Of a stretch of DNA of 64,000 nucleotides, positions 32,861-36,172 are shown one piece after another (within the stretch, counting starts at the first letter, position 1; every line of letters starts with the position of its first letter). Source of the DNA: Streptomyces adelaidensis (GTDB taxonomy: Bacteria > Actinomycetota > Actinomycetes > Streptomycetales > Streptomycetaceae); the NCBI RefSeq assembly GCF_016598475.1, contig NZ_JAEMUX010000049.1, positions 1 to 64,000 on the forward strand. The letters run 5' to 3'. The notes below the pieces were generated by a model. It saw only the letters and a list, made by a program, of their open reading frames with translations, was not told where the DNA came from and ran no database searches. The position numbers and the translations under genes are program-made.

Positions 32861-33622
32861 ATGCAGCCCCCGCATCCGCACGCCCTGGTCCGCGACCACA
32901 CGATCTACGCCTGTGTGATGGGTTCGCGCGCCTTCGGTCTCGCGACGGACGACAGCGACACGGACCGGCGGGGTGTCTTCCTGGCCCCGACCGCGCTGTT
33001 CTGGCGCTTCGAGAAGCCGCCGACGCATGTGGAGGGGCCGGCGGAGGAGCAGTTCGGCTGGGAACTGGAGCGCTTCTGCGGTCTGGCCCTGCGCGCCAAC
33101 CCCAACATCCTGGAGTGCCTGCACTCCCCCTTGGTGGAGCACCTCGACGCCACCGGCCGTGAACTGCTCGCCCTGCGCGGGGCGTTCCTGTCCCGCCAGA
33201 CCCAGGAGACGTTCGCCCGCTACGCCCTCGGCCAGCGCAAGAAGCTGGACGCGGACATCCGCACGCACGGCGCCCCCCGCTGGAAGCACGCCATGCACCT
33301 GCTCCGTCTGCTGATGAGCTGCCGGGACCTGCTGCGCACGGGCGCGCTCACCATCGACGTGGGCGACCAGCGCGAGCCTCTGCTGGCGGTGAGGCGCGGC
33401 GAGGTCCCGTGGCCCCGGGTCGAGTCCTGGATGACCCGTCTGGCGGCGGAGACCGAGAAGGCCGCGGCCCGCAGCCCGCTGCCGGCGGAGCCGGACCGGG
33501 CCCGCGTCGAGGACTTCCTCGTCCGTACCCGGCGCGCGTCAGCCCTGGGGCCCGTCGAGGCGGACGCGGACCACGAAGTCGTGCAGGGCGTCGTAGGCGG
33601 CCGGGTTCTCCGGCAGCACTGA
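32861..33622 (+). CDS. Pol-beta superfamily nucleotidyltransferase, YcgL-like (copy 1)
   Basis: A 253-residue predicted nucleotidyltransferase. The nucleotide-binding GSRAFGLATDDSDTDRRGVF (residues 21-40) has the family's GS and DxD pattern; the third acidic residue is probably in GWELERFCGLAL. The C-terminal helical part contains KKLDADIRTHGAPRWKHAMH. Start at ATG 32861 is without ribosome-binding site; TACGCT ends 7 bases before it, suggesting a leaderless mRNA, only 22 bases after the Rieske stop. Its last 28 codons overlap the convergent copy 2 (33539-33622); the conserved part ends before the overlap, so an ancestral stop may have been lost. Such enzymes transfer nucleotides to RNA or other acceptors; substrate unknown. 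Confidence 0.85.
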   Translation: MQPPHPHALVRDHTIYACVMGSRAFGLATDDSDTDRRGVFLAPTALFWRFEKPPTHVEGPAEEQFGWELERFCGLALRANPNILECLHSPLVEHLDATGRELLALRGAFLSRQTQETFARYALGQRKKLDADIRTHGAPRWKHAMHLLRLLMSCRDLLRTGALTIDVGDQREPLLAVRRGEVPWPRVESWMTRLAAETEKAAARSPLPAEPDRARVEDFLVRTRRASALGPVEADADHEVVQGVVGGRVLRQH

Positions 33623-34300
33623 CAGGGCCTGCTCCTCGTCCAGCACCCGCTGCAGCCGCTCCACGTCCTGCGCGACGCGCTCCTGGTCGACCTCGGCCTT
33701 GCCGTGCTCCTGGGCGGCCTTCGCCGCGACCAGGTCCGGCAGATACGTGGGGGCCTCGTCGATCTCCGGCAGCAGGGTGGGCAGATGGGCCCGCACCTCG
33801 CCACTGCGCATCAGGTGGATGCCGGTGAGCAGCACCCGGAACGTGTAGAGCAGCGGCTTGAGTTCACCGGTCTTCTCGAAGAGCCGCCACTGGGTGGTCG
33901 CGAACCCGCGGTAGTGGTGGGCGTGGTGCCGGGTCAGGACACCGGGGGCGAGCGCGATCAGTTCGCGGTGCGCGTCGCTCGTGTGCACGACGAGCGGGGA
34001 GAGCAGCTGCTCCAGCACATAGCCGTTGCGGCGCAGCATCAGCCGGGCGAACTTGCGCACGTCGTGCGTGACGAGGTCCATTTCGACGCCGCCTTGGTCC
34101 CACATCCTCGACCGGGTCTCCTCCGGCTCGCCCAGCCCGACCAGTTCGGCCGTGGGCAGCAGGTGCACACCGCGCAGGTCGACGTCCGAGTCGCGTGAGG
34201 GGAAGCCGTACAGATGGGCTCCGGAGACGGTGGCGAACAGCAGCGGGTCGGGCTGTTCCGCCACCACCGGGGCCAGGTCGATATCGAGGGCGTCGGTCAT
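33539..34300 (-). CDS. Pol-beta superfamily nucleotidyltransferase, YcgL-like (copy 2)
   Basis: A 253-residue paralogue of the convergent gene at 32861. The active-site loop reads SGAHLYGFPSRDSDVDLRGV (about residues 26-45): the two metal-binding Asp are kept, but the usual GS is GA. The third acidic residue is likely in VEMDLVTHD (about 72-80). RRNGYVLEQLLSPLVVH corresponds to RANPNILECLHSPLVEH in copy 1. ATG 34300 follows the ADP-ribosylglycohydrolase stop by three bases, with the GAGGG at the stop serving as ribosome-binding site, so it is the third gene of the Nudix-DraG-NTase operon. Confidence 0.87.
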   Translation of the reverse strand: MTDALDIDLAPVVAEQPDPLLFATVSGAHLYGFPSRDSDVDLRGVHLLPTAELVGLGEPEETRSRMWDQGGVEMDLVTHDVRKFARLMLRRNGYVLEQLLSPLVVHTSDAHRELIALAPGVLTRHHAHHYRGFATTQWRLFEKTGELKPLLYTFRVLLTGIHLMRSGEVRAHLPTLLPEIDEAPTYLPDLVAAKAAQEHGKAEVDQERVAQDVERLQRVLDEEQALSVLPENPAAYDALHDFVVRVRLDGPQG

Positions 34301-34303
34301 CCC

Positions 34304-35326
34304 TCAAGCGTCCCAGAGGGCTCCCAACGACACGAGGTCGCCCTGGTACTCGATCCGGTCGGCCCACTCGGCGGGCCAGGCGCCCGGCCCGTGGTAGGCG
34401 CCCGCGAAGGCACCGGTGAGGCAGGCGATGGAGTCCGAGTCGCCCTTGGTGCAGGCGGCGCGGCGCAGTGCGGTGACGGGCTCGTCGACGAAGAGCAGGA
34501 AGCACAACAGGCCGGTGGCGAAGGCCTCTTCGGCGATCCAGCCCTCACCGGTGGCCAGGCAGGGGTCCGTCTCGGGCGACGGGAGCCGCAGGGCCTGCTG
34601 GACGCGGTCCAGGGCGCCCAGGCACTCGTCCCAGCCCCGGGAGATGTAGTGCTCGGCCGAGGGGTCCTGGCTGTACGTCCACAGGTCGCCGAGCCAGCGC
34701 GCGTGGTAGCGGGCGCGGTTCTCCTGCGCGTACGACCGCAGCCGTCCGACCAGGCCCATCGGCTCGACGCCCTGGGCGAGCAGCCGTATCGCGTGTGCGG
34801 TGAGGTCGGACGCGGCGAGCGCGGTGGGGTGACCGTGGGTGAGCGCAGCCTGCAACTGGGCGGCGCCCGCCCGCTGTTCGTCGCTGAGCGGGCCGATGAG
34901 GCCGAGCGGCGCGACCCGCATGTTGGCACCGCAGCCCTTGGAGTCGATCTGGCTGGCGAGCTGCCAGGGGGTGCGTTCGGCCGCGAGGAGTCCGCAGGCG
35001 ACCATGCAGGTGTGGCCGGGGGCCCGGTTGTTCTCCGGGGAGCGGGACCACTCCACGAACTCCTTGCGGACCGCCCGCTCCAGGACTTCGGGGGCGAGCA
35101 CGCCGCGGTCCATGGCCGCGCGCAGCCCGTGTCCCAGCGCCAGCGTCATCTGGGTGTCGTCGGTGACGATCGCGGGCCGCGGCAGCTCCATCTTCCGCCA
35201 GGGACCGAACTTGGCGAGGATGCCCGGGACGTCGTTGAACTCCGTGGGGAAGCCGAGGGCGTCTCCGAGGGCGAGTCCGAGCAGGGATCCGGTGGCGGAG
35301 CGCTTCGTACGCAGAGTCATGGTCAT
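34304..35326 (-). CDS. ADP-ribosylglycohydrolase (DraG family)
   Basis: A 340-residue ADP-ribosylglycohydrolase, which removes ADP-ribose from proteins or nucleic acids using a binuclear metal site. SATGSLLGLALGDALGFPTEF (about 10-30) and VTDDTQMTLALGHGLR (about 54-69) give the first metal-binding Thr-Asp-Asp; the second site is GDSDSIACLTGAFAGAYHG near 290. CTKGDSDS and the GxxxGDxxG pattern are complete, so the enzyme should be active. ATG 35326 overlaps the Nudix stop by one base (TGATG). It links this operon to NAD/ADP-ribose metabolism. Targets are unknown. Confidence 0.92.
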   Translation of the reverse strand: MTMTLRTKRSATGSLLGLALGDALGFPTEFNDVPGILAKFGPWRKMELPRPAIVTDDTQMTLALGHGLRAAMDRGVLAPEVLERAVRKEFVEWSRSPENNRAPGHTCMVACGLLAAERTPWQLASQIDSKGCGANMRVAPLGLIGPLSDEQRAGAAQLQAALTHGHPTALAASDLTAHAIRLLAQGVEPMGLVGRLRSYAQENRARYHARWLGDLWTYSQDPSAEHYISRGWDECLGALDRVQQALRLPSPETDPCLATGEGWIAEEAFATGLLCFLLFVDEPVTALRRAACTKGDSDSIACLTGAFAGAYHGPGAWPAEWADRIEYQGDLVSLGALWDA

Positions 35327-36051
35327 CAGGGCCGTCCTTCCGTGGTGGGTCGCAGCAGAGGCGGGTGCAGGGCGGTGGCCCCACCCGCTCGATACAGCGC
35401 GGCAGGCTTGCCGCGGCCGCCGGTCAGGCGCGCGGCGCCGGGCACCGGTTCGACGAAGCCCGGCGTGGCCAGCACCTTGCGCCGGAAGTTGGGCCGGTCG
35501 AGCGGAGTGCCCCACACGGTCTCGTAGACCTGCTGCAGCTCACCGAGGGTGAATTCGGCCGGACAGAAGGAGGTGGCGAGACAGGTGTACTCGAGCTTGG
35601 CGCCGACGCGTTCGTGGGCGTCGGCGAGGATGCGGTCGTGGTCGAAGGCGAGCGGACCGATGGCGTTGAACCGCAGCCACTGGGCCTGGGCCGCGTCACC
35701 GCCGCCGTGCGGGACGGGCGGGTCCGGGAACAGCGCGGCGAACGCGACGGTGACGACCCGCATCCGGGGGTCCCTGCCAGGCTCGCTGTAGGTCCGCAGC
35801 TGCTCCAGGTGGAGCCCGGAGACGTCCTTGACGCCGGTCTCCTCCGCGAGTTCGCGCCAGGCGGCCTCCTCCGCGGACTCCTCCGGCAGCACGAACCCGC
35901 CGGGCAGTGCCCAGCGGCCCGCGTACGGCTCCTGCCCGCGCTCGACGAGCAGCACCTGGAGGGTGCCCGCGCGGACGGTGAAGACGGCCAGGTCGACAGT
36001 GACGGCGAAGGGTTCGAAGGCGTACTTGTCGTAGCCCTCGGGTGTGGTCAT
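35326..36051 (-). CDS. NrtR-like Nudix transcription regulator
   Basis: A 241-residue protein with an N-terminal Nudix domain (VDLAVFTVRAGTLQVLLVER, then GGFVLPEESAEEAAWRELAEETGV, residues about 51-74) and a C-terminal winged-helix-like part (FTLGELQQVYETVWGTPLDR and FRRKVLATPGFVEPVPG, about 165-205). This two-domain form is that of NrtR, which senses ADP-ribose-type molecules and represses NAD-related genes; some members keep hydrolase activity, and the Nudix box here is nearly complete. ATG 36051 follows GGGGGTGGGGG. A symmetric sequence 33 bases upstream (36084-36100) would be its operator, so it likely autoregulates the operon with draG and the nucleotidyltransferase. Confidence 0.88.
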   Translation of the reverse strand: MTTPEGYDKYAFEPFAVTVDLAVFTVRAGTLQVLLVERGQEPYAGRWALPGGFVLPEESAEEAAWRELAEETGVKDVSGLHLEQLRTYSEPGRDPRMRVVTVAFAALFPDPPVPHGGGDAAQAQWLRFNAIGPLAFDHDRILADAHERVGAKLEYTCLATSFCPAEFTLGELQQVYETVWGTPLDRPNFRRKVLATPGFVEPVPGAARLTGGRGKPAALYRAGGATALHPPLLRPTTEGRP

Positions 36052-36083
36052 GTCCCCCACCCCCTTTATGGTCACCTCGACTA

Positions 36084-36100
36084 ATAGTCATGACGACTAT
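36084..36100 (-). promoter_or_regulatory. Candidate NrtR operator
   Basis: ATAGTC-ATGAC-GACTAT: 6-base arms in perfect inverted symmetry around 5 bases, lying in an AT-richer patch 33-49 bases upstream of the Nudix-regulator ATG. The position and the TAGTC/GACTA half-sites suit an NrtR-type regulator, by inference. Confidence 0.6.
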
Positions 36101-36172
36101 AAAAGGGCGAACGCCGGGGCACAACCCCTTTACGGGGAAAGGAAGGCCAGGAGCGGGGCCGGGAACGGCAAA

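Follow-up and report, generated by a model that had tools for sequence, protein, structure and literature searches.

Rodionov et al. are said to have described, in 2008, the regulation of nicotinamide adenine dinucleotide (NAD) metabolism by NrtR. In Mycobacterium NrtR combines a Nudix domain with a winged helix, and has a palindrome in its own promoter and NAD genes among its targets (PMC6800001). Systems centred on an ADP-ribosylglycohydrolase (ARG), and including a one-component regulator of the Nudix-helix-turn-helix (HTH) type, have been predicted in actinobacteria (Iyer et al. 2022, PMC9503650). They lack a coupled ADP-ribosyltransferase, their regulator may be of the Nudix or the WYL type, and the linkage of phosphatase, chaperone or restriction endonuclease (REase) genes is frequent, not universal. 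In the same paper NrtR-type factors are reported to sense ADP-ribose. RlaP nucleotidyltransferases, defined by Burroughs and Aravind 2016 (as cited in PMC7824862), are predicted to act on RNA ends ahead of ligation, putting back nucleotides that these have lost (PMC7824862), and are known, in the literature found, from comparative genomics alone. KptA links RNA repair to NAD (PMC7824862, PMC9503650). The locus described here lies in a stretch of 64,000 nucleotides of Streptomyces adelaidensis (contig NZ_JAEMUX010000049.1, positions 1 to 64,000; hereafter the window, at its full length), and hosts side by side an NrtR-like regulator, a DraG-type ADP-ribosylglycohydrolase and two RlaPs. It is tentatively read as an operon that answers ADP-ribose or NAD stress by joining the removal of ADP-ribose to the repair of RNA ends, an explanation to which we give a little less than even confidence. 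The features are the following.

32861-33622, plus strand: RlaP-A, pol-beta nucleotidyltransferase of 253 amino acids (aa), PF10127; presumed catalytic residues D33, D35 and E68.
33539-34300, minus strand: RlaP-B, pol-beta nucleotidyltransferase of 253 aa, PF10127, at the end of the NrtR operon; presumed catalytic residues D39, D41 and D75.
34304-35326, minus strand: DraG-type ADP-ribosylglycohydrolase of 340 aa, PF03747.
35326-36051, minus strand: NrtR-like regulator of 241 aa, with a PF00293 Nudix domain and a PF21906 NrtR winged helix.
36066-36102: predicted operator made of two overlapping palindromic boxes, TTATGGTCACCTCGACTAATA (36066-36086) and TAATAGTCATGACGACTATAA (36082-36102).

As in ARG-centred systems, an ADP-ribosylglycohydrolase and a one-component Nudix-HTH regulator are found together in an actinobacterium, and no ADP-ribosyltransferase has been seen among the immediate neighbours scanned. 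Unlike those systems, the locus features RlaPs and, in some species, pnuC and nadR, and no phosphatase, chaperone or REase gene is found among the scanned neighbours; the word RlaP has not been found in the main text of PMC9503650. With the mycobacterial system the locus shares regulator architecture, palindrome in the own promoter and NAD genes among the targets, whereas the operator sequence differs and the operon includes draG and rlaP-B. The original prediction for this DNA, made from the sequence alone, had spoken of an undescribed system. This overstated the case, as both ARG systems with Nudix regulators (PMC9503650) and RlaP as an RNA-repair enzyme (PMC7824862) had been predicted in print: the families, and the link between NAD and RNA repair, are known already. 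What we did not find described is the wiring, namely a predicted ADP-ribose switch in common, NAD salvage within the operon and a turnover of regulators in which the operator is kept. No published NrtR-DraG-RlaP locus was found in a literature search that covered few subscription papers.

The minus strand genes follow each other in the order nrtR, draG, rlaP-B in the direction of transcription. The nrtR stop and the draG start have one base in common (TGATG), three bases separate draG from rlaP-B, and the layout is that of an operon whose genes are probably co-transcribed. The rlaP-A and rlaP-B genes are convergent, and overlap at their 3' ends by 84 bases. Most of this had been correctly anticipated by the original prediction. 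The operon of an NrtR-like regulator, a DraG and a nucleotidyltransferase, with a 1-base overlap followed by a 3-base gap, agrees with coordinates and Pfam assignments; the nucleotidyltransferase proposed to face it is, as its partner, an RlaP of the PF10127 family, the two proteins being 29% identical; the family of the regulator is borne out by PF00293 and PF21906, and the predicted operator is conserved in the genus.

The regulator matches PF00293 with 75.2 bits and PF21906 with 60 bits, both above the Pfam cut-off. The NCBIfam equivalog NF050029 (ADPR-responsive repressor) is not reached (130.6 bits, cut-off 400). The nearest solved chains are 5bs6 (AraR) and 3gz5, listed as a member of the MutT/nudix family, which we take to be an NrtR. 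The Nudix box, judged against the usual consensus, is intact, and hydrolase activity is therefore possible. ADP-ribose is the probable ligand, and the protein is predicted to bind the palindromic operator. The operator core ATAGTC-N5-GACTAT occurs exactly only once in the 9.3-Mb genome; allowing up to two mismatches, 22 matches are found versus 18 for a reversed control pattern, so that weaker genomic matches are uninformative. Relatives were scanned with the pattern TTATNGTC-N5-GACNATAA, up to two mismatches being allowed, in a set of 25 Streptomyces loci composed of the window and 24 relatives, for each of which 8.2-14.5 kb were read. The palindrome marks the start of the operon in 24 loci, L059 being the sole exception, and is found there in all the 18 loci that bear NrtR. 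Within these intervals, and within the 64-kb window, the element was seen at the operon start only. Seven matches were found in a comparison set of other loci (544,770 bases), which includes the SPFH-linked boxes described below.

The window DraG matches PF03747 (ADP_ribosyl_GH) with 213.1 bits over a cut-off of 26.2, and has been aligned with the solved DraG 2woe across the TDDT and GD-x-D (here GDSDS) motifs. DDTQM and GDSDS are invariant in the 34 rows of the DraG alignment. The metal-binding motifs are kept, the last threonine of GD-x-D-T being replaced by serine. TIGR02662, the equivalog of dinitrogenase-reductase DraG, is not reached (68.1 bits versus 337.05). In S. coelicolor the uncharacterised DraG homologue SCO1766 (PMC5087735, PMC9411070) is perhaps, by gene numbering alone, the orthologue of the window DraG; no mention of regulator or RlaP neighbours of SCO1766 has been found in the portions of these papers at hand. 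By gene number, the regulator described here is perhaps SCO1767, tabled as a DNA hydrolase, which goes up by 1.8-1.9 log2 when topA expression is either lowered or raised; recA and dinP are found in the same expression tables (PMC6637917).

RlaP-A and RlaP-B, the only two RlaPs found in the genome, match PF10127 with 119.6 and 182.9 bits, respectively, over a cut-off of 23. Residues D33, D35 and E68 are invariant in 21 aligned RlaP-A sequences, and D39, D41 and D75 in 25 aligned RlaP-B sequences; the third acid (E68, D75) was assigned by strand position in AlphaFold2 models, which have a mean predicted local distance difference test (pLDDT) of 85.6 for RlaP-A and 89.3 for RlaP-B. Catalytic residues were read exclusively from alignments A2 and A3, which hold 24 and 20 of the 80 RlaP loci described below. 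Rows are tblastn segments with gaps removed. In earlier alignments, from which rows with internal stops were left out, RlaP-A and RlaP-B sets share loci, and these were not used for RlaP residues. Among solved folds, those nearest to RlaP-B belong to aminoglycoside nucleotidyltransferases (E 3e-6) as well as to HalB of Hailong (E 1e-4). HalB, a maker of oligodeoxyadenylate, comes first in the RlaP-A list, with a marginal E of 1e-3; aminoglycoside nucleotidyltransferases are listed too, and MNT antitoxin chains are found low in the list. Template modelling (TM) scores are all about 0.3-0.5, too low to tell the substrate; the fold is that of a minimal pol-beta enzyme. RNA ends are the putative acceptors of nucleotidyl transfer by the window RlaPs. 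The activities of all the enzymes of the locus, RlaPs and DraG alike, are predicted from sequence.

The closest counterparts of the RlaP pair are found in Deinococcus. In a tblastn search of plasmids with RlaP-B, matches of 52-53% came from three plasmids of Deinococcus, and a partial one of 41% from another. The plasmids of D. ficus and D. gobiensis encode Hen1, RlaP1, RlaP2 and Pnkp, in this order, with starts and stops overlapping or nearly so; the D. ficus operon features one extra gene between RlaP2 and Pnkp. D. taeanensis retains Hen1-RlaP1-RlaP2, with Pnkp reduced to a remnant. RlaP-A is 50% identical to D. ficus RlaP1 and RlaP-B is 52% identical to RlaP2, crosswise identities being 25-29%. 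Local duplication as the origin of the two nucleotidyltransferases was rejected, since their nearest Deinococcus RlaPs are not the same. By the one-to-one matches, and by the recurrence of the pair elsewhere, the window RlaPs are an old pair. Unlike in the Deinococcus operon, in the window the pair is convergent and away from pnkp, and one member belongs to the NrtR-draG operon.

Named genomes were scanned with RlaP-B, and the best 80 of at least 578 confirmed loci, some of them cut by contig ends, were analyzed. They span Planctomycetes, Cyanobacteria, Acidobacteria, Verrucomicrobia and other groups. RlaP-A is found near RlaP-B in 72 of the 80 (four of these neighbours, in L219, L221, L233 and L243, are weak, with a 27-34% match), Pnkp in 15 and Hen1 in 14. 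Embleya and Nonomuraea have RlaP-B relatives (69 and 64-65% identical, respectively), and in their records no DraG, NrtR or RlaP-A is found within 8 kb of these. An annotated RNA ligase adjoins the distant RlaP of Gordonia phage Daredevil; none is annotated beside the distant RlaP of Streptomyces phage Kela. Phages were also considered as a source of the genes, and rejected, as all phage matches to RlaP-A and DraG are below 60% identity.

Associations of RlaPs with ADP-ribose or NAD genes are found outside the genus too, at 6 of the best 80 loci (L215, L258, L231, L206, L197 and L252). In L215, from a metagenome-assembled genome (MAG) titled Ca. Kuenenia, RlaP-A, RlaP-B and DraG genes follow each other with 4-base overlaps; the about 25% identity of this DraG to the window DraG suggests a separate recruitment. 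In Adhaeretor mobilis (L258; NZ_CP036263.1, 3042056-3062787) RlaP-A and RlaP-B face a large NAD/ADP-ribose cluster, which encodes KptA, macro, Nudix, two DraG and microbial PARG proteins, as well as a nicotinamidase, a nucleoside deoxyribosyltransferase-like protein, NrtR and NadE. The SPFH label given to a 499-aa protein of this cluster was withdrawn, as no Pfam match exceeded the cut-off. The order in L231, a Pyrinomonadaceae MAG, is Hen1-Pnkp-NadR-PnuC-RlaP-A-RlaP-B. The RlaP neighbours are an SPFH and an NAD-kinase-like protein in L206, PARG in L197 and Nudix in L252. Of these neighbours (PARG, PnuC-NadR, Nudix, SPFH and DraG) only DraG was compared with chance, in a check that relied on 48 genomes (335 Mb, 99 PF03747 matches) and 0.85 Mb of loci: 0.24 DraG genes are expected, versus 3 seen in 2 loci. 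The presence of DraG near RlaP is mildly above chance, and thus suggestive.

These data bear on other claims of the original prediction. The link to RNA repair turned out stronger than could be known from the window, since two Deinococcus plasmids carry the same pair flanked by Hen1 and Pnkp, and the two RlaPs lie together in 72 of the best 80 loci. Conservation beyond close relatives, on which the proposal had been made to depend, is split: the full four-gene arrangement was seen, among the loci examined, only in Streptomyces, but RlaP-RlaP-DraG and NrtR-DraG-RlaP associations occur in two distant genomes. Inactive sites had been named as a second way in which the proposal could fail; DraG and both RlaPs have conserved active-site residues.

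Within the genus, gene content varies. In 25 Streptomyces genomes, own included, a DraG orthologue was found in 23, RlaP-A in 21, an NrtR orthologue in 16 and an intact RlaP-B in 13, according to presence/absence thresholds that we set on bit scores. Apart from genome G165, occurrences are nested (DraG > RlaP-A > RlaP-B), and RlaP-B without RlaP-A was found in none of the 25. Fragments of RlaP-B are left in G155 and G160. Reduced copies of RlaP-B in L068 and L070, and of RlaP-A in L100, point to ongoing loss at the locus. In 6 of the 18 NrtR-bearing loci (L053, L063-L066, L070) pnuC and nadR lie between operator and nrtR. The families were checked in L053, where PnuC matches PF04973 with 198.6 bits, and NadR matches TIGR01526 with 189 bits, below the cut-off of 341. 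Genome G171 hosts a second pnuC-nadR-nrtR copy apart from the draG locus (L106, G171:C23:82735-83451). In the wider phylum RlaPs are found in 8 of 149 sampled genomes; outside the genus no DraG-RlaP linkage was seen at the distant RlaPs or DraG orthologues read, except in L088 (G050, same class), where a DraG 32% identical is encoded about 4.6 kb away from a distant RlaP, on the same strand.

Of the 25 Streptomyces loci, 18 have NrtR and 7 lack it; in 6 of the latter the operator is still found before draG. The two sets differ at a variable position of the half-sites. In the 18 NrtR-bearing loci one half-site or both have A, and the other, where it is not A, has G, except for one T half-site in L100; in the 6 NrtR-less loci with operator both have C or T. 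The correspondence between operator form and NrtR presence (18/18 versus 0/6) has p = 7e-6 if loci are taken as independent, which they are not, as the DraG tree needs 5 label changes, with no fewer than 2 required by well-supported branches. A second NrtR gene (59-61% identity) is complete in 21 of the 25 Streptomyces genomes and split into two pieces in another 2. Its promoter features TTATCGTC-N5-GACGACTA in all the 20 genomes examined, with C in both half-sites. These sites resemble the altered draG operators of NrtR-less loci, and because of this likeness draG was probably handed to the second NrtR where the first was lost. In G164, an NrtR-less genome in about 1140 contigs, no NrtR of either kind was found.

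Partners for RNA repair are encoded elsewhere. Pnkp scores over the NCBIfam cut-off in 35 of 41 genomes (the relatives' set, which counts the window genome), and Hen1 adjoins Pnkp in all the 19 stretches read; repair partners are therefore available in trans in most relatives. On other contigs of the window genome (G000), RtcB and two PF09414 RNA ligases are found above cut-off. A 608-aa open frame (G000:C112:160921-162411; L127, L166), which combines a weak match to the Pnkp kinase part with an RNA ligase domain, is a second candidate RNA-repair enzyme of this genome. A 1273-aa frame (G000:C26:11654-15475; L124) starts as a serine recombinase, continues with a stretch similar to insertion sequence (IS) transposases and ends with the ligase part of Pnkp. 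In G154 (L165) pnkp is split by about 7 kb; mobile elements may use the gene as an insertion site.

Boxes of the second NrtR type are found in tandem in L124 (G000:C26:7417-7470), between an arginine deiminase gene and a pair encoding an SPFH and an NAD-kinase-like protein. In a survey of 21 stretches (L124 and 20 fetched, 19 of these around Pnkp) second-type boxes with up to 3 mismatches were found in 5/5 stretches with an SPFH match and in 0/16 without. The pair adjoins hen1-pnkp in L147, L154 and L158. The label NAD kinase for the gene beside SPFH was withdrawn, as its match (16.4 bits) is below the cut-off of 25.5, with 1.3e-8 to NAD kinase 2; the gene is called NAD-kinase-like because of this weak match. 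A weaker second-type site, with 3 mismatches, precedes a gene read as nadA. SCO3953 of S. coelicolor, a tRNA 2'-phosphotransferase, is reported to modify 5'-phosphorylated RNA (PMC5087735, PMC9411070).

In the explanation tentatively favoured, that of an ADP-ribose/NAD-stress operon, DraG and the RlaPs would serve one response. NrtR would repress the operon from the palindromic operator, and ADP-ribose produced by NAD cleavage, under stress or attack, would release repression. DraG would remove ADP-ribose from macromolecules, and RlaP-B, encoded by the same predicted transcript, together with RlaP-A, encoded by the facing gene, would restore missing nucleotides on damaged RNA ends. An RNA ligase would then seal the RNA, i.e. 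Pnkp/Hen1, encoded elsewhere in most of the genus; in the window strain, in which pnkp is interrupted, sealing would perhaps be carried out by RtcB or by one of the two other RNA ligases. NAD salvage through pnuC and nadR would be added by the operon in some species. The reversible nucleotide modification originally envisaged finds no support as such, as nothing shows that an RlaP product is removed by DraG.

Several observations weigh against this scheme. The rlaP-A gene is on the opposite strand, outside the NrtR operon. No RNA ligase is found in the cluster or among the scanned neighbours of the window RlaPs, and the cluster is not itself linked to RNA-repair genes. In the window genome pnkp could be traced at profile positions 248-851 only, as a fusion with a recombinase frame. 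DraG is near RlaP in only 2 of the best 80 loci. The 23 and 13 genomes with DraG and RlaP-B, respectively, imply that DraG is kept without RlaP-B, and in G165 both RlaPs are found at two other places, with no DraG orthologue. Where DraG and RlaP genes were read in other families of this order, they are not linked.

The unequal retention of DraG and RlaP-B would be expected if the locus counteracted ADP-ribosylation only, NrtR and DraG being an ARG-centred system, directed for example against phage transferases, and the RlaPs uninvolved neighbours. We regard this as somewhat unlikely. ARG systems with Nudix regulators are described in actinobacteria (Iyer et al. 2022, PMC9503650), and 6 of 7 NrtR-less loci retain the operator ahead of draG, as this explanation would have it; yet the scanned neighbours include no phosphatase, chaperone or REase gene of the kind common in ARG systems, rlaP-B begins 3 bases past draG, and some distant genomes also combine RlaPs with DraG or further ADP-ribose genes. 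PADLOC anti-phage models do not match RlaPs or DraG, and give for NrtR only a weak match (PDC-S07, 26.6 bits).

Genes may also stay together by vertical descent. The locus is flanked on one side by genes for an RNA pseudouridine synthase, ScpB and ScpA, and on the other by genes for a Rieske protein, DUF6529 and prephenate dehydrogenase. Flanking genes (rluB, scpAB, tyrA, Rieske) are syntenic in relatives, and the locus is therefore not an island. This synteny, the convergent orientation of rlaP-A and the sighting of the full arrangement in one genus only, among the loci examined, all fit the notion that draG, rlaP-B and rlaP-A are neighbours by history, with no shared function. The notion is nonetheless improbable: RlaPs recur with DraG, PARG, PnuC-NadR or NrtR in unrelated genomes, the DraG case being mildly above chance, and operator and operon structure are kept while the gene content upstream changes.

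A further reading, to which we attach a low probability, makes of the locus one arm of an NAD-coupled RNA-end repair. DraG would clear RNA ends ADP-ribosylated, for example, by a KptA/Tpt1-type enzyme, RlaPs would rebuild the ends, and a ligase complex, for example Pnkp/Hen1, would seal them; the freed ADP-ribose would induce the operon via NrtR, and pnuC-nadR would refill NAD. That RlaPs modify proteins or small molecules rather than RNA, as MNT antitoxins and aminoglycoside nucleotidyltransferases do, is very unlikely in spite of the fold lists given above, headed by the latter enzymes for RlaP-B and by HalB for RlaP-A, since TM-scores are too low to tell the substrate, RlaP counterparts are located with Hen1 and Pnkp, or beside the RNA ligase of phage Daredevil, and no HEPN-like partner is found among the scanned neighbours.

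The coupling of de-ADP-ribosylation with RNA-end repair remains the explanation that we tentatively prefer. Published lists class the DraG-type hydrolases of S. coelicolor as uncharacterised, and the locus ties DraG and RlaP to one predicted ADP-ribose switch. Because of this tie two questions, the role of the RlaP pair and whether NAD loss and RNA damage are one stress, can be tested together, in a group that has tractable strains. The locus hints that NAD loss and RNA damage may be answered together.

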